The notes under the pieces: model-generated | Seen by the model: the letters and a program-made list of their open reading frames with translations, nothing else | Told to the model about the DNA's origin: nothing | Database searches by the model: none | In this document: piece by piece, positions 45,738 to 61,792 of the stretch | Position numbering within the stretch: the first letter of the stretch is position 1 | Layout of the letters: every line of letters begins with the position of its first letter | DNA from: an uncultured Acidobacteriia bacterium | GTDB lineage: Bacteria; Acidobacteriota; Terriglobia; Bryobacterales; Bryobacteraceae | Length of the DNA: 64,000 bases | NCBI GenBank assembly: GCA_903851195.1 | Contig: CAINNJ010000012.1 | Location: 62,001 to 126,000, forward strand | Direction: 5' to 3' | Program-made: the position numbers and the translations under genes

Positions 45738-45761
45738 CGGCGCGCCTTCACTGGCGCGCCG
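45738..45761 (-). terminator. GC-rich hairpin over the response-regulator stop
   Basis: Perfect 9-bp inverted repeat CGGCGCGCC / GGCGCGCCG with a 6-base loop. One arm lies in the last codons of the response regulator and the other just beyond its stop. There is no T-run, so it may slow or stabilise the transcript end and is not a standard intrinsic terminator. Confidence 0.45.
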
Positions 45762-46137
45762 GGTTGAGCGCCGTCTCCATCGCCCTTACAATCGACGCAT
45801 GCGAGAACGGCTTCTCGACAAACCCGCGGATCGAGCCCCGCGCCAGAGCGGCCTGGATAACGGGGTCGTCCTTATAAAAGTAGCCGGAAACCACCAGAAC
45901 CCTCACCAGAGGCGCGGCGTTGCGGATGGTTTCTCCCAGATCGAGCCCGTTCATGTCGGGCAGCTTGGCGTCCACCAGCACCAGGTCGAAGTCGTACAGG
46001 CGCACCGCCTCCAGCGCGCTGCGTCCATCGTGCGTCTGGACGCAGCGCGCCCCCAGCTTTTCCAGCAGATGTTGCAGCGCCCAGCAGATATCGGAATCGT
46101 CGTCGACCACAAGAATCATGCGGTCCGCCAGACTCAT
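45748..46137 (-). CDS. Single-domain response regulator
   Basis: 129 aa receiver domain with no output domain. ILVVDDDSDICWALQHLLE gives the acidic pair, DLVLVDAKLPDMNG the phospho-acceptor aspartate, RVLVVSGY the conserved Ser/Thr strand and FVEKPFS the lysine. The ATG overlaps the histidine kinase stop (ATGA at 46134-46137), so the two are co-translated and almost certainly partners. Lacking a DNA-binding domain, it probably passes its signal by protein contact, for example to the sigma-54 activator gene product 3 kb away. That link is inference from position. Confidence 0.9.
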   Translation of the reverse strand: MSLADRMILVVDDDSDICWALQHLLEKLGARCVQTHDGRSALEAVRLYDFDLVLVDAKLPDMNGLDLGETIRNAAPLVRVLVVSGYFYKDDPVIQAALARGSIRGFVEKPFSHASIVRAMETALNPARQ

Positions 46138-47999
46138 CCCGGCGCGTCCCCGGCGGTGTAAGGCCCGGCAGTGTGCAGCAGAGGCAGTCTCATCGTGACG
46201 ATGGTACCTTTTCCGCTCCGGCTTTCCACGCTGATGGCGCCCCGGTGCTGGTCCACGATCGAATAGCAGATCGACAGGCCAAGCCCGATGCCCTTGCCTG
46301 GCGGCGCTTTGGTGTAGAAAGGATCGAAGATCTTGTCCTGATCCTCCGGCGAGATGCCCACCCCGGTGTCGGAGACGTGAATCAGTACATCGCCCCCGCT
46401 CTCCTCGGCGGAGATGCCGATCGCCCCACCCTCCGGCATGGCGTTCATTGCGTTCAGAAACAGGTTGACGAACACCTGCTCGAGCAGGCTCGGCACGCCA
46501 AGCACGCGAAGGGATTTGTCGGGAAAGCAGGTGCGGATATCGACCTTCTGAATCTTTGCCTGGTTGTCCAGAAACGTGACGGCCTCGTTCACGACATCCT
46601 CGATACGCACCGGCGTCTTGTTTCTGTCCGGCGAGGGATGCGCGAACCGGAGCAGGTTTTCGATGATCGAACTGGCTTTGTGAATGCCGCGATGGATTTT
46701 CTCCGCGCATTCGGAGCGGAACTCGGGACTGACGTCGTCTTCCTGCAGGAACTGCGCGGCCGAGGAGGCCACCGCCAGAGGAGTCCGGATCTCATGCGCG
46801 ATTCCCCTCGCCATCACGCCCAGCGACGCCAGTTTCTGCGACTCCAGCAACTGCAGTTCGAACTTGCGCTGCTCGGTGAGATCCCGCCCCACCGCCACGA
46901 AGCCGACGGTGCGCATGTTGTCGTCGATCATTCGCGAGACCACCCAGGAGACCGGCCGCCAGCCCCCGTTCCGGGTCTTGACGTCGCTTTCGATGCGCCC
47001 CGATCTTTCGCGGTCCGCGCCCACGCAGAACAACTGACGCAGACGGTCCGCGGCGGCGGGATCGCAGGAATCGAAAAAGGGCCGTCCCTTCACTTCGGCG
47101 ATCGCATAACCGGTAATCGACTGCGCCGCTCGGTTCCAGGTCAGAATATCGCCGTGGATATCGGTGGAAACCACCATGTCGCTGGCGCTTTCCACAATGC
47201 TCGCCAGGTGACGTTCCATCAGCCGGATCTCTTCGCCCAGACGCGTCCGCTCCGTAACGTCGTCGAGAACGAACAGCACATTGTCCACCTTGTCTCCCCA
47301 GTCGACCGGGAGCACGCTGTAACGGTAGACCCGAATGGGCACGCCGGGAGCGCGATAAGTCAGGTGCTGGCCCCTGGTGGGATGGCTGCTGGCGAACACG
47401 TTTCGGATCTGCTGTTCCAGCCCCATCTCCGAAAGGATGATCTCGGGAAAGACTTCGCTCAGCCGCTTTCCCACCGTCGTCTCCACGGTGCGGCGGGATT
47501 TCTCCAGAAAATTCCGGTTCGCGAAAACCACGCGCAGTTTCTGGTCGATCAGCAGAACCGACGTCGGAATCGCATCCGTCAGGAACCGATAAAGCCCTTC
47601 CGGTGAGTTTCTCGCGCCCGCGCCGGTGGCGATGGTCAGACAGGCGGCTTCCTCGCCGAGGCGAACGAGGGAACGGACCGCCTCGACGCACACGAGGCTG
47701 CCGTCCTTCTTCCGGTGTTGCCAGACTTCTCTCGCTTCGGAAGCCGAGGGGATGCGGGCGAGGCCGGACAAGCCGGCCGAATCGCCCTCCGCATGCAGTT
47801 GTCTGACCGTCATGGCCAGCAGTTCTTCACGCGTGTAGCCATAAAACGCGGCGGTGGCTTCATTCACCGCGAGGATGGCGAATGTCCGCAAACTCCAGAT
47901 CCACATCGGCAGCGGGTTGTCATGGAACAAGCCCAGCCCGACGGCCGGTTGTGGACCGCCGTCTTTTCCGGGGACGACTTCTTCGGGGACAACCGGCAT
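46134..47999 (-). CDS. PAS-domain sensor histidine kinase
   Basis: 621 aa, no transmembrane segments seen, so probably cytoplasmic. Three PAS-type domains (about residues 20-130, 145-260 and 275-395; for example ILTWNRAAQSITGYAIAEV) precede the HisKA dimerisation helix with H-box GIAHEIRTPLAV. The ATPase domain shows NLFLNAMNAMPEGG, DTGVGIS and GKGIGLGLSIC (N, G1 and G2 boxes). The start is ATG 47999, with GGGAGGA about 8 bp upstream; the frame opens further upstream, to 48044. It is divergent from the gas vesicle locus across a 352-bp region, and is a strong candidate for controlling it. Confidence 0.9.
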   Translation of the reverse strand: MPVVPEEVVPGKDGGPQPAVGLGLFHDNPLPMWIWSLRTFAILAVNEATAAFYGYTREELLAMTVRQLHAEGDSAGLSGLARIPSASEAREVWQHRKKDGSLVCVEAVRSLVRLGEEAACLTIATGAGARNSPEGLYRFLTDAIPTSVLLIDQKLRVVFANRNFLEKSRRTVETTVGKRLSEVFPEIILSEMGLEQQIRNVFASSHPTRGQHLTYRAPGVPIRVYRYSVLPVDWGDKVDNVLFVLDDVTERTRLGEEIRLMERHLASIVESASDMVVSTDIHGDILTWNRAAQSITGYAIAEVKGRPFFDSCDPAAADRLRQLFCVGADRERSGRIESDVKTRNGGWRPVSWVVSRMIDDNMRTVGFVAVGRDLTEQRKFELQLLESQKLASLGVMARGIAHEIRTPLAVASSAAQFLQEDDVSPEFRSECAEKIHRGIHKASSIIENLLRFAHPSPDRNKTPVRIEDVVNEAVTFLDNQAKIQKVDIRTCFPDKSLRVLGVPSLLEQVFVNLFLNAMNAMPEGGAIGISAEESGGDVLIHVSDTGVGISPEDQDKIFDPFYTKAPPGKGIGLGLSICYSIVDQHRGAISVESRSGKGTIVTMRLPLLHTAGPYTAGDAPG

Positions 48000-48351
48000 T
48001 GCGTGTTCCTCCCGGGATGCTGTCCGCGCCGGCCGGCATAACATGAAAAGCCCTGACTAAATCGGGCGTATTTACGGCTATGTCGGGGCGCCGGGCAGAC
48101 ACTTGTCAGTGTGACCGCAAAGTTCAGACAAAGTAAAGCCCAAACCAGGCAAAAAAGACAAGTCTTTGTCCCGGATGTCTACACTAAAATGCTGATTTTG
48201 GATAGTATTTGCCGTTGCGGGCCATTTCGCGTGGTAATGGCCGCTCCGATGTTATATAATCCGGTTTTGGAGTGCTGAAACAAACGGGCGGCAGTTGTCA
48301 CGGGCAGGGCGGAATGTCCCTGTTTTGCCCGTAAATAAAGGCAGGATCTGA
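48000..48351 (+). promoter_or_regulatory. Control region between kinase and gas vesicle locus
   Basis: 352 bp with no gene. TATAAT lies at 48255-48260, 92 bp before the next ATG, and is a good -10 hexamer, but the matching -35 is weak. Related GACAA/TTGTC elements repeat: GACACTTGTC (48098-48107, GACA/TGTC), GACAAAG (48127-48133) and GACAAGTCTTTGTC (48157-48170, perfect GACAA/TTGTC arms). These could be operators for one of the adjacent regulators. No exact sigma-54 (GG-N10-GC) site was found here. Confidence 0.5.
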
Positions 48352-48963
48352 ATGATATATGGAGACATCTCCGGGCGCGATCGGGAGTTGCTCTATCTTC
48401 CGATCGTGCATACGCAGGTGGACATGGGCAGCCTCGGCACCTCCATTGCCGGAGCGAAGGCCTCGGCGATCGGCCAGTCCGGCGCCGCCCGTGCCGCTGC
48501 CCGCGTGCAGCGTTTGTGGGATGAAATCGAGTCTTTCCTGAATAAGCTGCCGGATAATCTTCAATCTGTCCGCGTTTACCAGGATGGCCTCGCGGTGTGC
48601 GGCCGGGAAACCGAGATTGTCACGGAACTGGCCGAAGCGGGAAGCCGGAACTATGCGCTGCTTCTGAAACTCCAGGCGCGCGGGGCGGTGCTGATGGGCA
48701 CCGAGTCGCCCGAACTGCTGGTCGAGGAGTACCGGCTCGCGCTCGCCGCGTTCGCTCCCGGAGCGGTCGCCGGAAGAGGCAAGGACCGATTGCGCGACAG
48801 CCTGCTCGACCGCCGCGACCGGTTTATCGCGGAACGTATCGACCAGACTCTCCTTGCGGGAGAAACAGCCATCCTGCTGATCGGGATGTTACACAAAATC
48901 GGGCGGTGGCTCCCTCCGGGGATCGCCGTGCACTACCCGCTGGCAGGCAGCAGCGGCAAATAG
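48352..48963 (+). CDS. Unknown protein, TraB/ChaN-like C-terminus
   Basis: 203 aa, first plus-strand gene of the gas vesicle locus. No named family is certain. The last ~45 residues (DRRDRFIAERIDQTLLAGE, then ILLIGMLHKIGRWLP) resemble the closing strand-helix of TraB/ChaN-type proteins, including the G-x-x-H after a hydrophobic strand. Middle helices contain VRVYQDGLAVCGRETEIV. It is followed immediately by the sigma-54 activator, whose coding frame starts within 11 bp of this stop. From memory of the Serratia locus, this is the position of gvpY; that comparison is untested. Confidence 0.6.
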   Translation: MIYGDISGRDRELLYLPIVHTQVDMGSLGTSIAGAKASAIGQSGAARAAARVQRLWDEIESFLNKLPDNLQSVRVYQDGLAVCGRETEIVTELAEAGSRNYALLLKLQARGAVLMGTESPELLVEEYRLALAAFAPGAVAGRGKDRLRDSLLDRRDRFIAERIDQTLLAGETAILLIGMLHKIGRWLPPGIAVHYPLAGSSGK

Positions 48964-48973
48964 GGGGCAAGGT

Positions 48974-50419
48974 ACGCCGAACGAAGGCAAGGTTCTAATT
49001 GCGGACGACGATCCGGAAATCGTCAGAATGCTGGCCCACCTGTTATCGCGCAGAGGTCTGAGTCCCATCCAGGCCGGGGGCGGGCGCGAGGCGCTCGAAC
49101 TGGTGCGAAAAGTCAGGCCGGACGTACTGCTGGTGGACTTCCGAATGCCGGAAATGGACGGCATCGAGGTGATGCGGAGGGCACGTGAAATCGAGCCGGA
49201 TCTGCCCGCCATCCTGATCTCCGCTTATGCGGACGTGCCCGGCGCGGTCCAGGCGATCCGGGCCGGCGCGCACGACTACCTGCGCAAACCCTTCGATCAT
49301 GAGGACGTGATCCGCGTCGTGCAGCGAGCTCTGCAGGAGCGCCGTTCCACGCGGGCCGCTCCCTCCCCGAATCGCGCGGATTCCTCCTGCGCGGGCTCGC
49401 TTTCTCTGCGCGAGACTTTCGGGCCCGGCGAGGCGATCTCCAAAGTAATCGCCGCCATCGAACTGGTGGCGAAGGCGAACTTCAGCGTCATCATTCTCGG
49501 CGAGACCGGGTCGGGAAAAGAGGTGGTCGCACAGGCGATCCACCGGGAGAGTCTGCGCCACGCGGCCCCCTTTGTCGCGGTGGATTGCGGCGCCATTCCC
49601 GACGCGCTGATCGAGAGCGAACTGTTCGGTCACGAGCGCGGGGCTTTTACCGGCGCCGACCAGCAGATGGCAGGGAAACTGGAGATCGCCCGCGGGGGCA
49701 CACTGTTCCTCGACGAGATCGCGAACCTGTCGATGGGCGCGCAGGCGAAACTGTTGCGCGTGCTGCAGGAGCGAACGATGCATCGCCTGGGAGGCGGGAA
49801 GTCCATCGGCGTCGACATCCGCGTGCTGGCCGCCGGCAACCGCGATATCGAAGAGCTTTGCCGGAGGGGCTCGTTTCGCAGCGATCTCTACTTCCGGCTC
49901 AACGACTTCACGATTTCGATTCCACCGCTGCGCCGCCGGAAGGACGACATTCCGTTTCTTTCCGCCCGGTTCCTCGCCATGACCAACGCCGAACTCGGCA
50001 AGAATGTGCAGGGTTTCTCGTCCGCCGCGGAGGACGCCCTGCTGGCCTATGAATGGCCCGGCAATGTGCGGCAGCTTCGCTCGGTCATTCGCCGCGCCGT
50101 TCTGCTCAGCCACGACCTGATCGGGGAAGAACAACTTTGCCTGCCGCACGATGGCGCGGAGACTTCGTCCGCTCACGGCGCCGTGCCCGGGCGGAGCGCC
50201 TGTACGGACTGGGAGGGGCTGCCGCTGCGCGATGTCCTGCGCCGCAGTACGGCCTGCCTGGAGCGCAGGGTGCTCGTCCAGGCGCTGCAGCGCAGCGGCG
50301 GCAACAAAGCCAAGGCCGCGCGTCTGCTGCATGTCGATTACAAGACGATGCACTCGAAGGTCAAGGAATACGGAATCGATTTCGTGCACGACGAATCGGG
50401 AGAGGGAGTTCATGAGTAA
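48974..50419 (+). CDS. Sigma-54-dependent response regulator (GvrA-like)
   Basis: NtrC-type activator. Receiver: KVLIADDDPEIV, phospho-aspartate in LLVDFRMPEMDG (about residue 55), DYLRKPFD. AAA+: ILGETGSGKEVVAQAIH (Walker A), GAFTGA, the sigma-54-binding loop (about residues 222-227), and GGTLFLDEIANLS. C-terminal Fis helix-turn-helix: NKAKAARLLHVDYKTMHSK. The first ATG in frame (49028) would delete the conserved DDD, so coding must begin further upstream, where no ATG/GTG/TTG occurs; ACG at 48974, 7 bp after AGGGGG, is the best-placed candidate. The stop overlaps gvpH by 8 bp. In gas vesicle clusters such regulators activate gvp transcription. Confidence 0.9.
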   Translation, partial: TPNEGKVLIADDDPEIVRMLAHLLSRRGLSPIQAGGGREALELVRKVRPDVLLVDFRMPEMDGIEVMRRAREIEPDLPAILISAYADVPGAVQAIRAGAHDYLRKPFDHEDVIRVVQRALQERRSTRAAPSPNRADSSCAGSLSLRETFGPGEAISKVIAAIELVAKANFSVIILGETGSGKEVVAQAIHRESLRHAAPFVAVDCGAIPDALIESELFGHERGAFTGADQQMAGKLEIARGGTLFLDEIANLSMGAQAKLLRVLQERTMHRLGGGKSIGVDIRVLAAGNRDIEELCRRGSFRSDLYFRLNDFTISIPPLRRRKDDIPFLSARFLAMTNAELGKNVQGFSSAAEDALLAYEWPGNVRQLRSVIRRAVLLSHDLIGEEQLCLPHDGAETSSAHGAVPGRSACTDWEGLPLRDVLRRSTACLERRVLVQALQRSGGNKAKAARLLHVDYKTMHSKVKEYGIDFVHDESGEGVHE

Positions 50420-50930
50420 AAAGCGCACTGACGGCAATTCCTCCGGCGGCTTTGAAAGCGGAGCCGGCGGCATCCTCAAAGGACTGGGAGAGCTGATCGA
50501 AAAGCTGGGACACCTGGCCGAAACCGGCGAACAGCTCTCGCAGACCGGCGAGCTTACCGGATCGGGCAAGGACGTGAAAGGCATTTACGGCTTCACCGTC
50601 AAGGTGGGCCTCGGCGGCGACAAACCGCGCGTCGAACCGTTCGGCAACATCCGGCAGGACCGCGAATCCGGCCGCACGGTGGTGCAGGAAGTGCGCGAGC
50701 CGGCCGTCGATATTTTCGAGGAAGACGATCACGTGCTGGTGGTGGCGGAAATGCCCGGCATCGCGGCCGCGGATGTGCAGATTACGGTCGAGGGCGACGT
50801 GCTGACCATCGTCGCCGAGCACGGCGATAAGAAGTACCGCAAAGAGGTCCTTCTGCCCGCGAGCTCCGCTCCGGAAAAGATCCAGGTGACCTGCAACAAC
50901 GGCGTTGTCGAGATCCGGTGCGGAAATTAG
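50412..50930 (+). CDS. gvpH: Gas vesicle protein GvpH (Hsp20-like)
   Basis: 172 aa. The N-terminal half is helical and charged (ILKGLGELIEKLGHLAETG). The C-terminal ~85 residues are an alpha-crystallin/Hsp20-like domain (VREPAVDIFEEDDHVLVVAE, MPGIAAADVQITV, VLTIVAEHGDKKYRKEVLLP). This matches GvpH, a small-heat-shock-like chaperone of gas vesicle clusters. The ATG overlaps the activator stop by 8 bp, and the next gene begins 3 bp after this stop. Confidence 0.87.
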   Translation: MSKKRTDGNSSGGFESGAGGILKGLGELIEKLGHLAETGEQLSQTGELTGSGKDVKGIYGFTVKVGLGGDKPRVEPFGNIRQDRESGRTVVQEVREPAVDIFEEDDHVLVVAEMPGIAAADVQITVEGDVLTIVAEHGDKKYRKEVLLPASSAPEKIQVTCNNGVVEIRCGN

Positions 50931-50933
50931 CAT

Positions 50934-53078
50934 ATGCCTGCCGAACGACCGGAAGTTCCCGCGCTGAAACTCAAAGTCACCGAAGCGCTCAGTAAAGACG
51001 TGGGCCGGGGTATCGCCCGGATGGGTCCCGCCGATCTCGAAACGCTGCAGATTGCGGTCGGCGATATCGTCGAGATCTCCGGCAAGCGCGCGGCCGTGTG
51101 CAAGGCGATGCCGGTCCATAAGGACCTGCGAGGCCAGTCCCGCATTCAGATCGACGGTCTGTTGCGCGAAAACGCGGGCGCCGCGCTCGATGAACTGGTG
51201 ACGGTGCGCAGGATCGCCTGCCGTCCGGCCGAGCGCGTGGTGCTGGCGCCCGTCAACACCCGGCCCTCCGACCGCGACCTCGATTACATCGGCAGCCTGC
51301 TGGACGGCCTGCCCGTGCGCGCGGGCAGCCGCATCCGCGCCACGCTCTTCGGCAGCCGCTGGGCCGATTTTCAGGTGGAAAGCACCACGCCGCCGGGCGC
51401 GGTGATGATCAATCCCACCACGCAGCTGGTGATCGGCAGCCCGCAAAAAAGCGAAGGCCGGACCGCGCGCTCCACCAGCTACGAAGACATCGGGGGACTC
51501 AAACCGCAGCTCCACCGCATCCGCGAGATGATCGAGCTGCCGCTGCGCTATCCCGAGGTGTTCGAGCGGCTCGGCATCGATGCGCCGAAAGGCGTGCTGC
51601 TGCACGGTCCTCCAGGCTGCGGGAAAACGCTGATCGCGCGTGCCATCGCACACGAAACCGACGCCAATTTCTTCTCGGTGAGCGGACCCGAGATCATCCA
51701 TAAATTCTACGGGGAAAGCGAAGCGCATCTCCGCAAGATCTTCGAAGAGGCCGCCCGCAAAGGCCCCAGCATCATCTTTCTCGATGAGATCGACGCCATC
51801 GCGCCGCGCCGTGAATCCACCGTGGGCGAGGTGGAAAAACGTGTGGTGGCACAGTTGCTCGCGCTGATGGACGGCCTCTCGAAACGCGGGCAACTGATCG
51901 TGATCGCTGCCACCAATCTGCCGGACGCGATCGACCCCGCGCTGCGCCGGCCCGGCCGCTTCGACCGCGAAATCACGATCCCCGTGCCCGACCGCAACGG
52001 GCGCGAAGAGATCCTTTCCATCCACAGCCGCGGCATGCCGCTCGCCGAAAACGTGCATGCCGGCCAGCTGGCCGAGATCACGCACGGCTTCGTCGGCGCC
52101 GATCTGGAAGCGCTCTGCCGCGAAGCCGCCATGATCTGCCTGCGCCGCATCATGCCGATGATCGACTTCGCGGTGGCGCGCATTCCTTACGAACTGCTGG
52201 CCACCATCGAAGTTACCAAAGAGGACTTCCTGGAGGCTCTTCGCGAGGTGGAGCCTTCCGCCATGCGGGAGGTCTTCGTGGAAGTGCCGGATGTCCGCTG
52301 GGACGACGTCGGGGGCCTGCTGCAGGTCAAACAGAAGCTGCGGGAGGCCGTGGAATGGCCGCTGCAGTACGCCGCGCTGTTTTCCAGCGCGGGTGTGCGC
52401 CCGCCGAAAGGGATCCTGCTCACCGGGCCTCCGGGCTGCGGCAAGACGCTGCTCGCGAAAGCCATTGCCACCGAGAGCCGGGTGAATTTTATCTCCGTTA
52501 AAGGGCCGGCGCTGCTTTCCAAGTACGTCGGCGAATCGGAGAGGAGTCTGCGCGACATCTTCCGCAAAGCCCGGCAGGCGGCGCCCTGCATCATCTTCTT
52601 CGATGAGATCGATGGGCTCGCCCCGGCGCGCAGCGAAGGCGGCTCGGACGGGCATGTGGCCGAGCGGGTGCTCAGTCAGTTTCTTACCGAGTTCGACGGG
52701 GTGGAGGAGTTGAAGGGCGTGCTCGTGCTGGGCGCGACCAATCGCCGCGACATGCTCGACGATGCCATTCTGCGTCCCGGGCGCTTCGATGAGATTGTTG
52801 AGATCCCGCTGCCGGACATGGAGAGCCGCCGCCAGATCTTCGAAGTCCATATGCGGAACAAGCCGCTCGCCCCCGGCATCTCGGCCGCCGGTCTGGCTGC
52901 GCAGGCCGAAGGTTTCAGCGGCGCGGACGTCCAAAGCGCCTGCACCCGGGCCGCGTTGTGCGCGGTGCGCCGCGCGGTGGCCGCAAGGGTGGCGGACTCC
53001 GAGTCCCTGGCGCCGGCGCTGATCGGCCCGGCCGATTTCCAGCTCGCGCTCGAAGAAGTGCGCGCGCGTCATGACTGA
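50934..53078 (+). CDS. CDC48/p97-like double AAA+ ATPase
   Basis: 714 aa. The N-terminal ~185 residues resemble the double-psi barrel of CDC48 (LKLKVTEALSKDVGRGIARM). D1: GPPGCGKT (about 226), IIFLDEIDAIAPRR and DPALRRPGRFD. D2: GPPGCGKT (about 499), IIFFDEIDG and DAILRPGRFD. Both rings keep Walker A, Walker B and arginine fingers, so both should hydrolyse ATP. CDC48-type unfoldases are common in archaea and sporadic in bacteria. The setting, between GvpH and two GvpF/L genes with 8-bp overlap at the 3-prime end, suggests unfolding or remodelling of shell proteins. Confidence 0.92.
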   Translation: MPAERPEVPALKLKVTEALSKDVGRGIARMGPADLETLQIAVGDIVEISGKRAAVCKAMPVHKDLRGQSRIQIDGLLRENAGAALDELVTVRRIACRPAERVVLAPVNTRPSDRDLDYIGSLLDGLPVRAGSRIRATLFGSRWADFQVESTTPPGAVMINPTTQLVIGSPQKSEGRTARSTSYEDIGGLKPQLHRIREMIELPLRYPEVFERLGIDAPKGVLLHGPPGCGKTLIARAIAHETDANFFSVSGPEIIHKFYGESEAHLRKIFEEAARKGPSIIFLDEIDAIAPRRESTVGEVEKRVVAQLLALMDGLSKRGQLIVIAATNLPDAIDPALRRPGRFDREITIPVPDRNGREEILSIHSRGMPLAENVHAGQLAEITHGFVGADLEALCREAAMICLRRIMPMIDFAVARIPYELLATIEVTKEDFLEALREVEPSAMREVFVEVPDVRWDDVGGLLQVKQKLREAVEWPLQYAALFSSAGVRPPKGILLTGPPGCGKTLLAKAIATESRVNFISVKGPALLSKYVGESERSLRDIFRKARQAAPCIIFFDEIDGLAPARSEGGSDGHVAERVLSQFLTEFDGVEELKGVLVLGATNRRDMLDDAILRPGRFDEIVEIPLPDMESRRQIFEVHMRNKPLAPGISAAGLAAQAEGFSGADVQSACTRAALCAVRRAVAARVADSESLAPALIGPADFQLALEEVRARHD

Positions 53079-54527: not shown

Positions 54528-54741
54528 TGCGGGAATGCATTCTATGGATTCATTTCCATATATCCCGGGCGTTCCGATCTTACTCGTCCGGTTTTTCTCA
54601 TCTCTCCTTAGCCATATTCCTTTAAAATCAACGAGATCCGAAGTCCGGAAAGGAGCCGGAAATTATGGCCGCCAGCGTGCTAGAGAGTACAGCGAGGGCA
54701 CAAGGAAAAGGCCCTTGGACTGACAAAGGAGAAACAAAACA
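54528..54741 (+). promoter_or_regulatory. gvpA upstream region, possible sigma-54 site
   Basis: 214-bp spacer before gvpA. TGGCCGCCAGCGTGCTA at 54666-54682 has GG-N10-GC spacing and partial match to the -24/-12 consensus (TGGC at -24; GTGCT for TTGCT at -12). A sigma-54 activator is encoded 5 kb upstream, so this is a reasonable candidate for the gvpA operon promoter, with a start point near 54692 and a leader of about 50 bases. A weak TAAAAT hexamer lies at 54623-54628. It overlaps a possible short reading frame (54665-54754). Confidence 0.4.
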
Positions 54742-54754
54742 ATGGCAAAGGTAA
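54665..54754 (+). CDS. Possible 29-aa leader peptide
   Basis: ATG 54665, preceded by AAAGGAG with 9-base spacing, opens a 29-codon frame beginning [18 protein letters not shown]. It ends at TAA 54752-54754, 13 bases inside gvpA in another frame. Either it is a translated leader coupled to gvpA or the frame is accidental; it overlaps the candidate sigma-54 site, and if that promoter is used the peptide would not be made. Confidence 0.3.
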
Positions 54755-54960
54755 ATAAATCCACTGATTCGTCGAGCCTGGCGGAAGTGGTCGACCGCAT
54801 CCTGGACAAAGGCATCGTCATCGACGCCTGGGTCAAAGTTTCACTCGTTGGCATTGAACTGCTCTCGGTGGAAGCGCGTGTTGTTATCGCCTCGGTGGAA
54901 ACGTATCTGAAGTACGCCGAAGCGATTGGCCTGACCGCCAGCGCCGCTGCTCCGGCATAG
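54742..54960 (+). CDS. gvpA: Major gas vesicle shell protein GvpA
   Basis: 72 aa, the usual length. [20 protein letters not shown] and [20 protein letters not shown] are the hallmark GvpA beta-hairpin and helices; [13 protein letters not shown] is the C-terminal helix. GvpA polymerises into the gas-filled shell. AAGGAG with good spacing precedes the ATG. It is followed by two strong hairpins (54970-54988 and 55019-55063), consistent with a highly expressed gene ending or attenuating here. Two other GvpA/J-like minor proteins occur at 60821 and 61481. Confidence 0.97.
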
Positions 54961-54969
54961 ACCTCGCTT

Positions 54970-54988: not shown

Positions 54989-55018
54989 CTCAGGCAGGTT
55001 GAATGCATTTCCTCCTCC

Positions 55019-55063: not shown

Positions 55064-55111
55064 TTTGGGGCTTCGAAACTTCAATCGTAAGGAAAAGGAG
55101 AATTGGCTCTT

Positions 55112-55396
55112 ATGCTGGCAGATGACATGACGCGGCTGTGCGGCGAGATCGTCGGACTGCGCAGATCGCGCGAGGGCATGGTGAAACAGTTGCGCCGTGA
55201 TACCGAAGGCCGGAGGACTGCTGTGTCCGACCTTTGTGCTCACTTCAACCGCTCACGGATGGAACTCGCCAAACAGAACGCCGCTGAACGGAGGGCGAAT
55301 CTGAACGAACTCAGGCGCTCGGTTCAGCGGCAGTGCCTGGATGTTCGCAATGATCTTGCGGGCGCCCGAAGAGGCTGGGCGGGCAGAGGTTCCTAG
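55112..55396 (+). CDS. Small coiled-coil gas vesicle locus protein
   Basis: 94 aa, highly charged and helical (LCGEIVGLRRSREGMVKQLR, FNRSRMELAKQNAAERRANL). The first ~45 residues share a pattern with the start of the protein at 55515 (MxRLxxEIxxLRxxR, then RRxAVxxL and a phenylalanine), so the two look like paralogues. No named family recognised. The ATG at 55112 has AAGGAG 11 bp upstream; TTG 55103 is also possible. Placement between gvpA and gvpN suggests a role at the vesicle surface or in assembly. Confidence 0.7.
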   Translation: MLADDMTRLCGEIVGLRRSREGMVKQLRRDTEGRRTAVSDLCAHFNRSRMELAKQNAAERRANLNELRRSVQRQCLDVRNDLAGARRGWAGRGS

Positions 55397-55399
55397 TGT

Positions 55400-55439
55400 G
55401 AGGCGGCGCGGGCGCCCTGCAGTACTCCCGCGCCGCCTC
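55400..55439 (+). terminator. Perfect 13-bp GC hairpin
   Basis: GAGGCGGCGCGGG (55400-55412) pairs perfectly with CCCGCGCCGCCTC (55427-55439) around a 14-base loop, 4 bp after the small coiled-coil gene. No T-run follows, so it is a stable hairpin of uncertain function, possibly a transcript-processing or pausing site. Confidence 0.55.
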
Positions 55440-55446
55440 TGCATTG

Positions 55447-55486
55447 TTGAATGACTAAGTTCACGGTTGATTGACTAAGTTCACGG
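55447..55486 (+). repeat. 20-bp tandem duplication
   Basis: TTGAATGACTAAGTTCACGG (55447-55466) is followed directly by a copy with one change (55467-55486, TTGATTGACTAAG then TTCACGG). The 20-bp period is about two DNA turns. It lies 29 bp before the next ATG and could be a duplicated protein-binding site or a slippage duplication. Confidence 0.8.
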
Positions 55487-55514
55487 ATAAAGTCGCCGCG
55501 GGGAGGACACAAAA

Positions 55515-56114
55515 ATGGGCATATTAACGGATTCAATGGGGCGGCTGCGGGAAGAGATTGACGCGCTGCGCCGGAAACGTTCGCTTGCCGGGACGGAGTT
55601 GCAGCGTCAGTCGGCCGAGAGGCGCGCGGCTGTGATGGCCCTGCGAACGTCGTTTTCTCGGGACCGGGCACGGGCGCATCGTTCCTGGTTCGGTCCCACC
55701 GCGAGTGAGCGCCGCGCGGCGGAGATGCATCGCCTGGCCGCGCAGGAACTCGAACGCAGGCGCGCCGAAGAAGCTTACGCGCTGGCGAAAGCCGAGCAGG
55801 AGCGCAGGCAGGCGGAAGAAGCGCAGGCGCTCGCGAAGGCCGAGCAGGAGCGCAGGCAGGCGGAAGAAGCCCAGGCGCTGGCGAAGGCCGAGCAGGAGCG
55901 CAGACAGGCCGAAGAAGCCGAGGCTCTGGAGAAGGCCGAGCAGGCTCGCCGGCTCGCCGAAGAAGCCAGGGCTGAAGAAGAAGCGCGCCTGGACGCCGAA
56001 GCGCCCGAAGCTTCGGAACACGAACCGGATTCACCCGCCGGTCAGCCGGGACCAGAGCCCGACAGGTCCGGAGCCCGCCATCACAGGAAACACAAAAGAC
56101 AAGGCTCGAACTAG
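55515..56114 (+). CDS. Coiled-coil repeat protein, GvpC-like candidate
   Basis: 199 aa. The start (MGRLREEIDALRRKR) resembles the 55112 gene product. Residues about 91-154 are four copies of a 16-aa unit (AKAEQERRQAEEAQAL), encoded by a 48-bp repeat at 55785-55976. The acidic/proline tail ends with a basic stretch (RHHRKHKRQG). A repeated amphipathic helix encoded beside gvpA and gvpN is the position and architecture of GvpC, which stiffens vesicles by binding their outer face. The 16-aa period differs from the usual ~33-aa GvpC repeat, so homology is not claimed. GGGAGGAC precedes the ATG. Confidence 0.75.
   Translation: MGILTDSMGRLREEIDALRRKRSLAGTELQRQSAERRAAVMALRTSFSRDRARAHRSWFGPTASERRAAEMHRLAAQELERRRAEEAYALAKAEQERRQAEEAQALAKAEQERRQAEEAQALAKAEQERRQAEEAEALEKAEQARRLAEEARAEEEARLDAEAPEASEHEPDSPAGQPGPEPDRSGARHHRKHKRQGSN
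55785..55976 (+). repeat. Four 48-bp coding repeats
   Basis: Units at 55785-55832, 55833-55880, 55881-55928 and 55929-55976. The first three are nearly identical in DNA and encode A-K-A-E-Q-E-R-R-Q-A-E-E-A-Q/E-A-L; the fourth is diverged. High identity suggests recent expansion and possible copy-number variation between strains. Confidence 0.85.
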
Positions 56115-56160
56115 CCGCGTCAAGCGTTCTTACCGACCGTCACAAGAAAGAGTCATCCGG

Positions 56161-57168
56161 ATGATACAGACAGAGAACAAAGAAGCGGGCGGAGTGGTCA
56201 GAGTGCAAGCGGAAGGCGACAATGTAACGCCCGAAGCCAGCGCGGAGTTTGTGGCGACCGTCCACATACAGACGCTGACCGAACGCGCCATGGCCTATCT
56301 CGAGGCCGGTTATGCGGTTCACTTCGCGGGCCCCGCCGGCACCGGAAAAACGACGCTCGCCTTTCACGTCGCCTCCCGCCTTGGCCGCCCCGTGACGCTG
56401 GTCCACGGCGACGACGAGTTCGGCAGCTCCGATCTGATCGGCAAGGATGCCGGCTACCGGCGCTCCAAGGTGGTCGACAACTATATTCACTCCGTGCTCA
56501 AGACGGAAGAGAATATGAATTCGCTCTGGGTGGACAACCGTCTCACAACGGCGTGCGCGCAGGGCAACACGCTCATCTACGACGAGTTCAACCGGTCCCG
56601 GCCGGAAGCCAACAATGCCCTGCTGAGCGTGCTCGAGGAAAAGATCCTCAACCTGCCCGAACTCGGCCGCAGCGGCCAGGGATATCTTGAAGTGCATCCG
56701 GAATTCCGCGCCATCTTCACTTCCAATCCGGAAGAGTACGCCGGCGTGCACAAAACGCAGGACGCGCTGATGGACCGGATGATCACGCTGAATCTCGGGA
56801 ACTTCGACAAAGAGACCGAAATCCGGATCGGCATGGCGAAGTCCGGTCTGCCGCGCGAGGACATGGAGATCGTGGTCGATCTGGTCCGTGAGTTGCGCGG
56901 CACCGGCGTCAACAACCACCGTCCGACGGTCCGCGCCACCATCGCGATCGCCCGCATTCTAGCGGGACAGCACGCGCATGCCAGTCTGGGAGACCCCGTT
57001 TTCCACTGGGTCTGCCGCGACGTGCTCAACTCGGACACGGCGAAGGTCACGCGGGACGGCGAGTCGCTGATGCCCGACAAGATCGAGGAAGCCATGGCGA
57101 AAGTCTGCGTCCCGGTCCTCGGCGCCCGCAAGACGTCGGCCCGCCATTCCGGCCGGGTCAAGGAGTAA
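56161..57168 (+). CDS. gvpN: Gas vesicle AAA+ ATPase GvpN
   Basis: 335 aa, MoxR-type AAA+ ATPase. HFAGPAGTGKTTLAFHVA is Walker A (about residue 57), LIYDEFNRSRPEANNALLSV is Walker B with sensor region, and AIFTSNPEEYAGVHKTQDAL is the sensor-1/family stretch. GvpN assists growth of vesicles from biconical seeds in known systems. The frame continues 150 codons upstream inside the coiled-coil gene but without family similarity, so ATG 56161 was chosen; its ribosome site is weak. The next gene starts 4 bp after the stop. Confidence 0.95.
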   Translation: MIQTENKEAGGVVRVQAEGDNVTPEASAEFVATVHIQTLTERAMAYLEAGYAVHFAGPAGTGKTTLAFHVASRLGRPVTLVHGDDEFGSSDLIGKDAGYRRSKVVDNYIHSVLKTEENMNSLWVDNRLTTACAQGNTLIYDEFNRSRPEANNALLSVLEEKILNLPELGRSGQGYLEVHPEFRAIFTSNPEEYAGVHKTQDALMDRMITLNLGNFDKETEIRIGMAKSGLPREDMEIVVDLVRELRGTGVNNHRPTVRATIAIARILAGQHAHASLGDPVFHWVCRDVLNSDTAKVTRDGESLMPDKIEEAMAKVCVPVLGARKTSARHSGRVKE

Positions 57169-57172
57169 CGCG

Positions 57173-57511
57173 ATGGCAACGCCGACAAGAGGACTGACGG
57201 GAATTCGGACGCTCTCCGGCCGGGTGGACAAAGGCTCGCTCGCGTACCGAAGCTACATGCAGATCACCTGCCTTGAAATGGAGAAGGCGCGCCGGGACGC
57301 CGAACGCAGAAGCGCCAGCCAGCGGATCGCGATGATCGACGCGCGGCTGCGCGAAATCGAGGCCGCGAAGGCGGAGCTGCTGCAGACCGTGTCCGGCGAA
57401 CCCGCCCCGCCGTCGCGAACTCCGGCCCGAGGCGCCTCGTCCGGAATGGCGCGGCTCGAAGTAAAACCCACGCCGAAACGAAACGGCGGCGGGTTCAAAA
57501 TCCGCTACTGA
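57173..57511 (+). CDS. gvpV: Gas vesicle protein GvpV-like
   Basis: 112 aa. GIRTLSGRVDKGSLAYRSYM and QITCLEMEKARRDAERRSAS, followed by IDARLREIEAAKAELLQ, agree with my memory of GvpV, a small helical protein encoded next to gvpN in several bacterial clusters. The C-terminus is arginine/proline-rich and ends GGGFKIRY. The ATG is 4 bp after the gvpN stop. Function in assembly is unknown. The symbol rests on pattern memory and position. Confidence 0.75.
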   Translation: MATPTRGLTGIRTLSGRVDKGSLAYRSYMQITCLEMEKARRDAERRSASQRIAMIDARLREIEAAKAELLQTVSGEPAPPSRTPARGASSGMARLEVKPTPKRNGGGFKIRY

Positions 57512-57534
57512 TCCGGAATGCGGGAGGAGACCCC

Positions 57535-57762
57535 ATGCTGACCATCAGAACGTGCCCGCACATCCGCACCAGCCGGCATCGCAACAACTTCCGCGCCTGC
57601 GCGGCTTCGACCGGAGTGCCGCTCCGGCACGTGGCCGCGTCGGCCGCGCTGCGCGAAGAGATTCGCCTGTCGAACGCGCTGGAGCGCCGGGCGTGGATCG
57701 AAGAAATGTGGCGGCGTCACGGCGCCAGAATCCAAATCTCGTCGGGAAGGAAAGTCTTATGA
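57535..57762 (+). CDS. Small unknown protein in gvp operon
   Basis: 75 aa, basic, with a helix AALREEIRLSNALERRAWIEE followed by MWRRHGARIQI. No family recognised. It is supported as real by a strong GGGAGGAG 5 bp before the ATG and by an ATGA overlap with the next gene (57759-57762), so it is translated in series with gvpV and gvpF. No equivalent is known to me in other clusters. Confidence 0.65.
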   Translation: MLTIRTCPHIRTSRHRNNFRACAASTGVPLRHVAASAALREEIRLSNALERRAWIEEMWRRHGARIQISSGRKVL

Positions 57763-58565
57763 AAGTCGAACTCAGCGGGACGGCCGTAACCGACACGCCC
57801 GCCGAAAAAAACGCCACCCCGGTTGCCGCGGGACGGAAGTATCTTTACGCCATCGTATCGAGCGGCGAGGCCCGGGGTTACTCCGCGCTCGGCATCGACG
57901 CCGGCGACGTTTATACCATCGACGACGGCAACATCGCCGCCGTGGTCAGCGACTGCGACCGCACCAAAATAAGGCCGGAACGCGCCCACCTGGCCGCTCA
58001 TCAGGCCGTGCTGCGCTCGCTGATGCAGGCCACGTCGCCGCTGCCGATGGCGTTTGCCACGCTCGCGGCGGGCCCGCGTGAAATTCACCGGATCCTCTCG
58101 AAGAACCGCCGCGTTTTCGAACAGCAACTGCACCGGGTCGAGGGCAAGGTGGAGATGGGACTTCGCGTCGGATGGGACGTGCCGAATATCTTCGAGTATT
58201 TCGTGAACGTTCATCCGGAGCTTCGGGTGGCCCGCGACCGCCTGGTCGGCGCGCGCGTCGGCTTCACGCAGGAAGAAAAGATTGAGCTGGGCCGGATGTT
58301 CGACCGCCTGCTGACCAGCGACCGGGAAGAACATGCGCGCCGCGTGAAGCGCGCGCTGATGCCGGTCTGCGCGGAAATCAAAGCCAGCCCCTGCCGCGGC
58401 GAGCGGGAAGTGATGAATCTGGCCTGTCTGATAAAAAGGGACGCCCAGAACGTATTTTCCGACGCCGTCTTCGAAGCCGCCAAGCTGTTCGACAACAACT
58501 TCACCTTCGACTACAACGGGCCGTGGGCGCCTCACAATTTCGTTGAGATCGACATGGCGAGGTAA
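57759..58565 (+). CDS. gvpF: Gas vesicle protein GvpF
   Basis: 268 aa, GvpL/GvpF family. KYLYAIVSSGEARGYSALGI opens the N-terminal domain, HQAVLRSLMQATSPLPMAFATL is the core motif, and NFTFDYNGPWAPHNFVEI is the closing motif, close to the family FDYNGPWPPYNF-like end. Most typical of the three F/L paralogues in the window. GvpF binds monomeric GvpA and is essential for assembly in other systems. The ATG overlaps the previous stop (ATGA). The stop overlaps the start of gvpG (TAATG). Confidence 0.93.
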   Translation: MKVELSGTAVTDTPAEKNATPVAAGRKYLYAIVSSGEARGYSALGIDAGDVYTIDDGNIAAVVSDCDRTKIRPERAHLAAHQAVLRSLMQATSPLPMAFATLAAGPREIHRILSKNRRVFEQQLHRVEGKVEMGLRVGWDVPNIFEYFVNVHPELRVARDRLVGARVGFTQEEKIELGRMFDRLLTSDREEHARRVKRALMPVCAEIKASPCRGEREVMNLACLIKRDAQNVFSDAVFEAAKLFDNNFTFDYNGPWAPHNFVEIDMAR

Positions 58566-58861
58566 TGCTCCTTATCGACGACCTGCTGCTTTCACCCGTC
58601 AACGGAATTCTCTGGGTTTTCCGCGAAATCAACAAGGTGGCGCACGAGGAACTGGCGAACGAAGCCCAGTCCGTCACGGAAAGTCTGCGGCAGTTGTACA
58701 TGGAACTCGAAACCGGGCGCATCGCGGAAGACGAATTCGATGCGCGGGAAAAGCTGCTGCTCGATCGACTGGAAGCCCTCGAAAGCGGCGACGACGCGGA
58801 TTCTGACGAAGCTGATACTGACGAAGAAAGCTCCGACGAAGCGGAGGAGGAGGACGAATGA
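58565..58861 (+). CDS. gvpG: Gas vesicle protein GvpG
   Basis: 98 aa. LLIDDLLLSPVNGILWVFRE is the characteristic GvpG N-terminus, followed by a helix (EAQSVTESLRQLYMELETG) and RIAEDEFDAREKLLLDRLE. The tail is extremely acidic (EESSDEAEEEDE). GvpG is a small essential accessory protein thought to act with GvpF in nucleation. Overlap with gvpF stop (TAATG) and with the ArsA-like gene (ATGA at 58858-58861) places it in the same operon. Confidence 0.93.
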   Translation: MLLIDDLLLSPVNGILWVFREINKVAHEELANEAQSVTESLRQLYMELETGRIAEDEFDAREKLLLDRLEALESGDDADSDEADTDEESSDEAEEEDE

Positions 58862-60819
58862 GCCTGCCCTCGTTCTTCACACAACCCGGCCTGCAGGTCC
58901 TGCTGTTCGGCGGCAAGGGCGGCGTAGGTAAAACGACCTGCGCCACCGCCGCGGCGCTGCGCCTCGCGGCGGCGAACCCCGAACGCCCGATCCTCCTGGT
59001 CTCCACCGATCCCGCCCACTCCCTGCGCGACAGCCTCGCGGGACACATCCCGCCGGCCAACCTCGAAGTTCTGGAACTGGACGCCGCGCAATGCCTGGCA
59101 CGCTTCCACGAACAGAACGACGAAATGCTCCGCGAGATCGCCTCGGCCGGCACCTTCCTCGACGACGAAGACGTCAGCCGGTTCCTCAATCTTTCCATCC
59201 CCGGCATGGACGAGCTGATGGCGTTTCTGACTCTCGCGGAACGCGCCGACGCCCGCCGGCAGGAATGCATCGTGGTCGATACCGCCCCCGGAGGGCACAC
59301 CCTTCGCCTGCTGGCTCTCCCGGAAACGATCCGCCGCTGGCTCGGTATGCTCGATGCCCTGCTGGCGAAACGCCGCTACATGCGGAAAGTCTTCAGCCGG
59401 GCCGCCGTCCCGGACCGGCTCGACAACTTCGTCTCCGACTGGAAGGCCTCCGTCACGCGTATGGAGCGCCTGCTGCATGACGCCTCCCGCTGCCGGTTCG
59501 TGCCCGTCGCCATCGCGGAACCGCTCGCCTTCGAAGTCACCGCCGGTATGCTTTGCCGGCTGAAAAGCCGCGGCATTCCGGTGACCGACATCGTCTTCAA
59601 CCGCTTGCACAGCACGGGCGCCTGCCCGTCCTGTTCCGCGTCCGCGAGGGCAGAGAAGGCGCTGATCCGGCAAATGGCCGGGACGTCCGGCCGCTCCGCC
59701 GCCGTCTGGGGCATCGAGCTGTTCGCCGAGGAGGTTCGTGGAGGCGGCCCGCTGACCCACTTCTGGGACGCGTGCCGGCCGATCCAGATGCAGGAAGTCG
59801 CTCAAGAATCCGTCCCCGTGGCGCTTCCGGAACCGCTGGTTCCTCAGCCCATGGTGGTGGACGCTCCGCCACTGCCCGGCCACCAATATCGACTGCTCCT
59901 GATGGCCGGCAAAGGCGGCGTCGGCAAGACCACGCTCTCCTGCGCGACGGCGCTCCGTCTCGCGCGCCAGTTCCCTCAGAAGAGGATTCTGCTCTTCTCC
60001 ACGGACCCGGCGCACTCGCTCAGCGCCTGCCTGCATATCGAAATCGGGAACCGCATGAGGCACCTGCTGCCCAATCTGACGGCAACCGAAATCGACGCAA
60101 CAGCGGAATTCGAGAAACTGAAAGCCCGCTACGCCGCGGACGTGGCCCGCTTTCTCGAGGCCATCTCAAAGAACTTCGACCTCACCTTCGACCGTATCGT
60201 CTTCGAGAAGCTGATGGATCTGGCGCCCCCCGGACTCGACGAGATCATGGCTCTCACCCGGATCGTCGACCTGACCGCCGGCGACAGCTTCGACCTGTTC
60301 ATTCTCGATTGCGCCCCGACCGGTCACCTGATCCGGCTGCTGGAACTGCCTGAAATCCTCAACGAGTGGCTGAAGAATTTCTTCAATCTCTTCCTGAAAT
60401 ACGAGGGCCTTCTCCGCCTGCCCCACTTCGCCGACGAACTGGTGAGCATTTCGCGCAATCTGAAGAAACTTCGCGCGCTGCTCGTCGATCCGGAGCGTTC
60501 GGCGCTTTACGCCGTGGGAATTCCCACCCGGATGGCGCTGGAGGAAACGCGCGATCTGCTGGCCTCCTGCGACCGGATGAGTCTGTCGGTGCCCGTGGTC
60601 TTCCTGAATCTGATGACGACGCCCGGCGCCTGCCCGCTCTGCGCGCGCGTGGCGCAAAGAGAAGCGCTGCAGGCCGGCGAGTATCGCCGGAGCTTTCCGG
60701 ATCGCCATCTGACTCTGGTGTGCCGCCAGTCCGACGCCGAACTTCCGGATCTGCCGGACCGGCTCGGCTGGCAGCTCTACGCAAGCGAATCCCACGCGGG
60801 AAAAGGGGCCGCGGCCTGA
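58858..60819 (+). CDS. Tandem ArsA/Get3-like ATPase
   Basis: 653 aa with two complete ArsA-family halves. Half 1: FGGKGGVGKTT (about 18), STDPAHSL and CPSC (about 255). Half 2: MAGKGGVGKTT (about 349), STDPAHSL, DCAPTGH and CPLC (about 592). The CxxC in each half resembles the zinc cysteines of Get3, which shields hydrophobic tail segments, more than the arsenite site of ArsA. No arsenic genes are nearby. The gene overlaps gvpG and precedes a GvpA/J gene by 1 bp. From memory, this is the gvpW position of the Serratia locus. A role handling hydrophobic GvpA-type proteins is inferred. Confidence 0.88.
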   Translation: MSLPSFFTQPGLQVLLFGGKGGVGKTTCATAAALRLAAANPERPILLVSTDPAHSLRDSLAGHIPPANLEVLELDAAQCLARFHEQNDEMLREIASAGTFLDDEDVSRFLNLSIPGMDELMAFLTLAERADARRQECIVVDTAPGGHTLRLLALPETIRRWLGMLDALLAKRRYMRKVFSRAAVPDRLDNFVSDWKASVTRMERLLHDASRCRFVPVAIAEPLAFEVTAGMLCRLKSRGIPVTDIVFNRLHSTGACPSCSASARAEKALIRQMAGTSGRSAAVWGIELFAEEVRGGGPLTHFWDACRPIQMQEVAQESVPVALPEPLVPQPMVVDAPPLPGHQYRLLLMAGKGGVGKTTLSCATALRLARQFPQKRILLFSTDPAHSLSACLHIEIGNRMRHLLPNLTATEIDATAEFEKLKARYAADVARFLEAISKNFDLTFDRIVFEKLMDLAPPGLDEIMALTRIVDLTAGDSFDLFILDCAPTGHLIRLLELPEILNEWLKNFFNLFLKYEGLLRLPHFADELVSISRNLKKLRALLVDPERSALYAVGIPTRMALEETRDLLASCDRMSLSVPVVFLNLMTTPGACPLCARVAQREALQAGEYRRSFPDRHLTLVCRQSDAELPDLPDRLGWQLYASESHAGKGAAA

Positions 60820-60820
60820 C

Positions 60821-61093
60821 ATGGAAAACGCATTTACACCGGAACTGGCGGAACTCGGGGCGGACCAGCGCGCCTCCGTCTGTGAGGTGCTCGACCGCGT
60901 GCTGAACAAGGGCGCCGTCGTGGTCGGCGAAATCACCATCTCGGTGGCGAATGTCGACCTCCTGTACCTTGGCCTGCAACTGGTGCTGACCTCGGTGCAG
61001 ACCGCGCGCGATAACTTCACCGACCCGGTGAGCCACGCGCCCGGCGGCGCGGGACTGAAACTCGATCTCGCGAGAAAAGGAAAAACGAGATGA
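60821..61093 (+). CDS. Minor gas vesicle protein, GvpA/J/S family
   Basis: 90 aa. SVCEVLDRVLNKGAVVVGEI, then TISVANVDLLYLGLQLVLTS, is the GvpA-like hairpin, with helices shortened and an added C-terminal glycine-rich tail. Minor GvpA-family proteins (J, M, S) form vesicle tips or nucleation sites. The ATG lies 1 bp after the ArsA-like gene, and the stop overlaps gvpK (ATGA, 61090-61093). J versus S cannot be settled here. Confidence 0.88.
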   Translation: MENAFTPELAELGADQRASVCEVLDRVLNKGAVVVGEITISVANVDLLYLGLQLVLTSVQTARDNFTDPVSHAPGGAGLKLDLARKGKTR

Positions 61094-61461
61094 ACGCGGT
61101 TCTCACGACCCCGATTGAATCGGACTCGATTCGCGACTTCGCTCTGGTCATGCAGCAGGAGGAAGGGCTGCGCCCGCGGCGAAATCCGCTCGGCGGCGGG
61201 GCCCGTCTCGAGCTCGATCCCGACAGCGTCAAAAACGGGCTGGGCCAGCTGGTGCTCACCGTCGTCAAGCTGCTGCACGAGGTGCTGGAGCGCCAGGCGA
61301 TTCGCCGCATCGACGCCGGCGCCCTTACCGAGGAACAGATCGAGCAACTGGGCCTGACTCTGATGCGCCAGGCCGAGGAAATCGAACGCCTGCGACAGCA
61401 GTTCGGACTCGGCGAGGACGATCTGAACCTCGACCTCGGACCGCTCGGCAAGCTTTTTTGA
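61090..61461 (+). CDS. gvpK: Gas vesicle protein GvpK
   Basis: 123 aa. The GvpK core is clear: LELDPDSVKNGLGQLVLTVV, KLLHEVLERQAIRRIDAGAL, TEEQIEQLGLTLMRQAEEIE. The acidic C-terminus (LGEDDLNLDLGPLGKLF) is typical. GvpK is an essential accessory protein of unknown exact role. ATGA overlap with the preceding GvpA/J gene, and the next gene is 19 bp downstream with its own weak ribosome site (GAAGAAAG). Confidence 0.95.
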   Translation: MNAVLTTPIESDSIRDFALVMQQEEGLRPRRNPLGGGARLELDPDSVKNGLGQLVLTVVKLLHEVLERQAIRRIDAGALTEEQIEQLGLTLMRQAEEIERLRQQFGLGEDDLNLDLGPLGKLF

Positions 61462-61480
61462 GAATTGAAGAAAGAACATC

Positions 61481-61792
61481 ATGCCCCAACAATCGGTTAC
61501 ACATTCGATGCAGAGTTCCACCTTGTCCGACGTTCTCGAGCGTGTGCTGGACAAGGGCGTCGTCATCGCGGGAGACATCAAAGTCAAGCTGGTGGATATC
61601 GAGTTGCTCTCGATCCAGATTCGCCTCGTGATCTGCTCCGTGGACAAAGCCAAAGAGATGGGGATGGACTGGTGGGTGAATAACCCCGTCTTCTCCAGCC
61701 AGGCGGCTCAGCCGCAGCTCGAATCGACCCTCTCGCGCATCGACGCGCGTCTGGCGAAGCTGGAAGCGGCGCTGCCGGCCGAACGGGCCTGA
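61481..61792 (+). CDS. gvpJ: Minor gas vesicle protein, GvpJ/GvpA family
   Basis: 103 aa. LSDVLERVLDKGVVIAGDIK, then VKLVDIELLSIQIRLVICSV, is the GvpA-type core; DKAKEMGMDWWVNNPVF and a C-terminal coiled coil (SRIDARLAKLEAALP) extend it beyond GvpA, as in GvpJ-like tip proteins. It is the last gvp gene. A weak inverted repeat GGAGCG/CGCTCC follows the stop (about 61795-61817), and the 127-bp spacer contains TACAAT (61838-61843), a possible -10 for the next gene. Confidence 0.9.
   Translation: MPQQSVTHSMQSSTLSDVLERVLDKGVVIAGDIKVKLVDIELLSIQIRLVICSVDKAKEMGMDWWVNNPVFSSQAAQPQLESTLSRIDARLAKLEAALPAERA

Follow-up and report, generated by a model that had tools for sequence, protein, structure and literature searches.

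Does a compact run of genes at positions 45748-61792 of a 64,000-nt stretch from an uncultured bacterium of the Bryobacteraceae amount to a working gas vesicle locus, and what are two large ATPases doing in it? Gas vesicles are protein bubbles that let cells float, and the phylum concerned, Acidobacteriota, is best known from soils. The stretch (hereafter the window) spans bases 62001-126000 of a 136,848-bp contig (C12) in a 7.72-Mb genome, for which completeness is estimated at 99.66% and contamination at 0.99%. We conclude that the run is very likely a complete gas vesicle locus of the type known from Serratia and Desulfocicer and, judging from its sequence, that it is probably functional. 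The locus is ordinary in kind; the parts worth following are an unnamed gene linked to gas vesicle genes and the Get3-like reading of a tandem ArsA ATPase. Its features are as follows, in coordinates of the window.

45748..46137, minus strand: GvrC-like single-domain response regulator; open reading frame with 35-55% identity to response regulators near gvrB in relatives; start codon overlaps the kinase stop
46134..48044, minus strand: GvrB-like PAS histidine kinase (start at 48044 or 47999); Pfam PAS, HisKA, HATPase_c
48352..48963, plus strand: unnamed gas-vesicle-linked protein of 203 amino acids; family alignment and co-occurrence with gas vesicle genes
48974..50419, plus strand: GvrA-like sigma-54 activator with receiver, AAA+ and Fis helix-turn-helix domains (nominal start); Pfam, Sigma54_activat 1e-64
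50412..50930, plus strand: GvpH, Hsp20-like; PF05455 8e-6, PF00011 5e-7
50934..53078, plus strand: CDC48-like double AAA+ ATPase; TIGR01243 900 bits (cut-off 803); slot of Serratia GvpZ
53071..53847, plus strand: GvpF2 (GvpF/L); PF06386 4e-45
53844..54527, plus strand: GvpF3 (GvpF/L); PF06386 3e-28
54666..54681, plus strand: putative sigma-54 promoter TGGCCGCCAGCGTGCT; TGGY-N8-TGC motif match
54742..54960, plus strand: GvpA1, major shell protein; PF00741 3e-17, NF006874 134 bits (cut-off 100)
55112..55396, plus strand: C1, small protein in the GvpC position; alignment with relatives, family models unmatched
55515..56114, plus strand: C2, paralogue of C1 with a 48-bp repeat tail; alignment, tandem repeat, TolA match below cut-off only
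56161..57168, plus strand: GvpN AAA+ ATPase; TIGR02640 3e-100, 335 bits (cut-off 267)
57173..57511, plus strand: GvpV-like protein; 35-63% identity to 27 frames in fetched loci, and position
57759..58565, plus strand: GvpF1 (GvpF/L), within frame 57552-58565; PF06386 5e-63
58565..58861, plus strand: GvpG; PF05120 4e-15
58858..60819, plus strand: tandem ArsA/Get3-like ATPase; PF02374 in two stretches 4e-99, TIGR00345 332 bits (cut-off 135); slot of Serratia GvpW
60821..61093, plus strand: GvpA2, minor GvpA paralogue; PF00741 3.5e-16
61090..61461, plus strand: GvpK; PF05121 9e-34
61481..61792, plus strand: GvpA3 (GvpJ-type); PF00741 1e-16

Gene content was established by a Pfam scan of 20 frames of the window, with NCBIfam models run as well. 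A preliminary description of this DNA had proposed three gvpA, three gvpF/L, gvpG, gvpH, gvpK and gvpN genes, and the profiles recognized all of them, including the five families (gvpA, gvpF, gvpG, gvpK and gvpN) that it had singled out for such a search. The three matches to Gas_vesicle (PF00741) all lie above the cut-off, with E-values from 3e-17 to 4e-16. The sigma-54 activator and the histidine kinase of that description were likewise recovered by profile, and the regulator that it paired with the kinase was identified through similarity to relatives. Its GvpV-like protein is supported by position and by relatives, without a matching model in either collection. The gene list was right as far as it went; it overlooked C1, C2 and the gene at 48352-48963. 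C2 ends in a charged repetitive tail encoded by a 48-bp tandem repeat (55755-55974, 4.6 copies), and two 20-bp direct repeats lie between C1 and C2 (55446-55486).

The double AAA+ ATPase and the tandem ArsA/Get3-like ATPase, also called from the letters in the preliminary description, both scored above their NCBIfam cut-offs. The CDC48-like protein matches CDC48_N, CDC48_2 and two AAA stretches in Pfam and carries two Walker A motifs, two Walker B motifs and two RPGRFD motifs, so that it is predicted to combine an N domain with two AAA+ domains bearing the motifs for activity. The P-loops are all present: both in the CDC48-like protein, both in ArsA and the one in GvpN.

We then read gene order in loci fetched from other genomes (L numbers), using the window proteins as yardsticks. 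Apart from the place of gvrB-gvrC, the order in the window recurs in genomes of the same family (e.g., L039, L044, L046, L047), of a second family in that class (L063, L065) and of deltaproteobacteria (e.g., L076, L084, L085, L092, L093), some of which have a second gvpA copy; a Poribacteria locus (L090) has extra frames inserted into the order. The window itself shows both gvrA-H-CDC48-F2-F3 and A1-C-N-V-F1-G-ArsA-A2-K-A3. The position of the gvrB kinase varies: it lies co-directionally between gvpF3 and gvpA1 in L039, L044 and deltaproteobacterial loci such as L084, L085 and L092, whereas in L047, L095 and L202 it is divergent and leftmost. The left-end, opposite-strand placement of gvrB-gvrC in the window is shared by L202, and that of the kinase alone by L047.

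A candidate promoter precedes gvpA1. We examined 29 stretches, the window included, that comprise gvpA1 matches of at least 80% with 300 bp upstream (three loci count twice because of a second gvpA). In 16 of them TGGY-N8-TGC occurs no more than 160 bp ahead of gvpA1, where a first-order Markov control predicts 0.48; before eleven other genes, the same distance has it in 0 to 2 stretches each. The site at 54666-54681 is thus a putative sigma-54 promoter core for gvpA1, and a gene for RpoN is present elsewhere in the host genome. A sigma-54 site before gvpA1 has been published for Serratia, as has dependence on GvrA, GvrB and GvrC.

Several observations weigh against a complete and working locus. 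The motif is absent from 13 of the 29 gvpA1 stretches, which are moreover related among themselves, and when the distance is widened to 300 bp it precedes 9 of 15 CDC48 genes and 7 of 38 gvpA3 genes, although these matches probably sit in the coding sequence of the preceding gene. The GvpV-like frame has no Pfam or NCBIfam match, and neither C1 nor C2 matches a GvpC family in those collections; compared with solved structures, C1 and C2 gave nine PDB matches up to E 1, none of them a gas vesicle chain. We equate Serratia GvpW, GvpY and GvpZ with window proteins by position, and vesicles still form in native Serratia after deletion of gvpW and gvpZ (earlier work cited in PMC10344784). GvpK was found in none of 18 other genomes of the same genus. 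Lastly, ATG, GTG and TTG are all missing from the gvrA frame between the previous stop and 49028, where its first ATG lies inside the receiver domain, which begins earlier. All seven relatives whose 5′ end was read have a start there (ATG or GTG in six, TTG in one), just upstream of [KR][IV]LI[VA]D; L039 and L096, in which gvrA is cut at the 5′ end, are not among the seven. We took an in-frame ACG at 48974, near the relatives' start site, as the nominal start, and gvrA may have an unusual start codon, encode a shortened protein or contain an assembly error.

The missing start and the same-genus absences would both suit a silent or decaying locus, in which the operon is off because the GvrA regulator is missing its start codon and some of its receiver domain; the absence of GvpK from the other 18 genomes suggests a locus that is easily lost or recently gained. 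We nevertheless regard decay as improbable. A single base change or an assembly error would account for the gvrA start, and the receiver's first strand and acidic residues can still be read from the in-frame sequence ahead of 49028, which argues for translation of that part. Genes other than gvrA are free of internal stops and G+C-rich at third positions.

We therefore retain the reading of a complete, probably functional locus and propose the following scheme for it. The GvrB kinase and GvrC receiver would sense a cue and pass it to the sigma-54 activator GvrA, which together with RpoN would turn on the gvpA1 operon. If expressed, GvpA1 would form the shell with the minor GvpA2 and GvpA3; GvpF1-3, GvpG, GvpK and GvpH would serve in shell chaperoning and nucleation, and GvpN and GvpV would drive growth from bicone to cylinder, making the cell buoyant. 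The CDC48-like and ArsA/Get3-like ATPases may act as accessory assembly or quality-control machines for the hydrophobic shell proteins.

This last step competes with another view of the ATPases. ArsA is best known for arsenic resistance and CDC48 for general protein quality control, and these reputations fit an alternative in which both are unrelated arrivals kept for those roles. Also in its favor are the persistence of vesicles in the native Serratia deletions and the loci that do without ArsA: it is absent from the fetched stretch in 8 of 24 GvpK-found loci having gvpG and gvpK, showing that it is not indispensable. One such locus, L053, has the rest of the cluster type except gvrB-gvrC, with gvpG directly adjoining gvpA2. 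We nonetheless consider unrelated arrival very improbable. The two genes occupy the same slots over several phyla. Gas vesicle operons on plasmids also include CDC48, as a gene in Methylosinus and as fragmented CDC48-like frames in Methylocella. When gvpW or gvpZ was deleted from the Serratia cluster in E. coli, the ultrasound signal was reduced or eliminated (PMC10344784). The preliminary description had called both ATPases extra to the gas vesicle genes; they turn out to be regular parts of such clusters in acidobacteria, deltaproteobacteria and Desulfocicer vacuolatum.

The cysteines of ArsA speak against an arsenic role as well. Two reference arsenic ArsA proteins, taken together, have Cys in six alignment columns, among them those that we take to bind arsenite, and Cys is found there in only 0 to 2 of 43 gas vesicle ArsA rows. 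The arsenite-pump identity was rejected, since these cysteines are not kept and arsen_driv_ArsA scored 156 bits against a cut-off of 650; no other ars gene was found among the 20 frames scanned. The window protein instead carries one CxxC motif per half (residues 256-259 and 592-595). The first is complete in 40 of the 43 rows and both are complete in 27, with Cys in 42 and 40 rows at the two first-half columns and in 31 and 37 rows at the second-half columns. CxxC has a zinc role in Get3/TRC40, and the second window motif lines up with CEFC in 3zq6, an archaeal TRC40 listed under M. therm. An AlphaFold model built from 19 sequences (mean pLDDT 78.7, pTM 0.77) matched Get3 chains half by half. 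The likeness to Get3/TRC40 thus lies in the CxxC of each half and in the fold of the halves; the differences are that the window protein is a fused tandem, whereas Get3/TRC40 is a homodimer, and that its best whole-fold matches are ArsA chains. On sequence and model together, the vesicle ArsA fits a fused Get3-like pseudo-dimer that would handle hydrophobic proteins. Lacking the arsenite cysteines and having the Get3-like CxxC, it may chaperone the hydrophobic GvpA, its obvious candidate client.

That the region comes from a contaminant contig, which the preliminary description had named as a way to be wrong, is unlikely to the point of carrying almost no weight: the genome is in 67 contigs, but this contig is 136.8 kb long, G+C is even at 0.60-0.67 across locus and flanks, the contamination estimate is low, sister genera carry the cluster, the nearest relatives belong to the same family, and a left-flank block (37024-45654) is retained in two genomes of the same genus (G009 and G013), both without GvpK. 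Two genes of that block look like glycosyltransferases.

An acidobacterial host, already suggested in the preliminary description, is probable. A search for 16S came up empty. In a 40-row ArsA tree, the window falls in a five-row clade (support 100/99) with three same-family rows and a record that bears the label Acidobacteriaceae; this clade is nested in a larger one of 13 rows (98/98) from the family, the class and Acidobacteriota, which deltaproteobacterial rows adjoin. A same-family row, L048, falls far from the window's clade, so that the family has at least two cluster types. Together with L049, L050 and L051, it represents a more divergent cluster in same-family genomes; L049-L051 have no ArsA in the fetched stretch, and the clusters of L049 and L050 are split into divergent blocks. 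Further types, differently ordered, are present in the phylum (e.g., L054, L055, L058, L062). Of 237 genomes in the family, 15 have GvpK above cut-off (one further match, below cut-off, is excluded); in a phylum-wide draw of 396 genomes the number is 23. Gas vesicle genes are patchy yet wide in the phylum, with an operon type shared with sulfate reducers, so that flotation or another use of gas vesicles there becomes testable.

The unnamed gene at 48352-48963 tracks gas vesicle genes closely. In the family it is carried by 16 of 237 genomes, 13 of which also have GvpK, against 1.0 expected (P 7e-17, a value that ignores kinship). Fifteen of the 16 have GvpK or GvpA, G107 and G221 having GvpA without GvpK; in the exception, G055 (94% complete, 390 contigs), the gene lies beside a gvrA relative and neither GvpK nor GvpA was found. 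Conversely, two of the 15 family genomes with GvpK do not have it (G101 and G220, 58% and 79% complete). Among the 396 genomes from the phylum, all 11 carriers fall within the 23 with GvpK (P 2e-15, again ignoring kinship); the 12 GvpK genomes without it show that the gene is limited to some cluster types. We chose 14 genomes from 24 loci found through ArsA, and 10 of these carry the gene, directly before gvrA in nine and beside ArsA in the tenth (L095/L203).

Four of 72,556 plasmid records match the gene, and all four have gvpN. On the Methylosinus plasmid it is flanked by gvpH and the CDC48 gene; an Octadecabacter plasmid carries it amid insertion sequences, some 25 kb away from gvpN. Methylocella tundrae and Methylosinus sp. 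C49, both methanotrophs, have gas vesicle genes on plasmids (L170, L171 and L172 are the plasmid loci, Octadecabacter included).

Neither Pfam nor NCBIfam gave the protein a family name. A TraB/PrgY/GumN identity was rejected for the window protein (PF01963, 17.3 bits against a cut-off of 26.8); PF01963 matches at E up to 0.1 occur in 8 of 15 family members, with a best E of 5e-4. A structure model built from three sequences (mean pLDDT 81.5) had no confident match in the PDB. In the library searched, we found no paper joining gas vesicle, gvp and TraB, which does not prove that the gene is undescribed. In Serratia, gvpY lies directly before gvrA (PMC9501494), and by analogy the protein may be GvpY. 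The alignment of 15 members has 20 invariant columns, including Q77-D78, T117-E118, R155-D156 and H181; on an alpha/beta model, the invariant Q-D, T-E and R-D pairs together with the last His may point to an enzyme or sensor. We hypothesize, tentatively and with considerable doubt, that this gene founds an as yet unrecognised gas-vesicle-specific family, probably of an enzyme or sensor working with GvrA and CDC48, and at the same time that the tandem ArsA is a dedicated Get3-like chaperone bringing hydrophobic GvpA to vesicles as they grow. If so, a layer of client delivery and control would be added to gas vesicle assembly across several phyla. The linked gene and the Get3-like features of ArsA open concrete tests of how the hydrophobic shell protein is handled.

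Set against known systems, most of the surprise that the preliminary description expressed at the locus proves unfounded. Tandem ArsA in gvp operons was described in 2010, including in Acidobacteria bacterium Ellin345 (PMC2963123), and an exchanged operon order was known by 2016 in Psychromonas ingrahamii and Desulfomonile tiedjei (PMC4982088), so that ATPases, order and phylum all have precedents. The Ellin345 operon resembles the window in placing a tandem ArsA in an acidobacterial gas vesicle operon and differs in the fewer genes reported for it (two L/F, J, K, M). Serratia sp. ATCC 39006 has the order gvpA1CNVF1GWA2KXA3Y / gvrA gvpHZF2F3 gvrB gvrC (PMC9501494, Table 1). As the preliminary description had stated, the window contains both blocks, each with the same internal order, in exchanged positions; in addition, gvrB-gvrC is inverted and the gvpX slot between gvpK and gvpA3 is empty. 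Ten genes are essential in Serratia (A1, F1, G, A2, K, A3, F2, F3, gvrA and gvrB; PMC4982088), and the window has counterparts of all ten, plus gvrC, N and V. A close match is Desulfocicer (Desulfobacterium) vacuolatum DSM 3385 (taxid 1121400), in which two overlapping stretches of one 201,140-bp contig give unnamed gene, gvrA, gvpH, CDC48, F2, F3, gvrB, gvrC, A1, C, N, V, F1, G, ArsA, A2, K, A3. The genes and their order are those of the window, apart from gvrB-gvrC, which in Desulfocicer vacuolatum lies between gvpF3 and gvpA1 on the same strand and in the window leftmost and reversed in strand, and apart from the C gene, present twice in the window and once in Desulfocicer vacuolatum. The Desulfocicer vacuolatum cluster produced gas vesicles in E. 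coli (PMC10344784).

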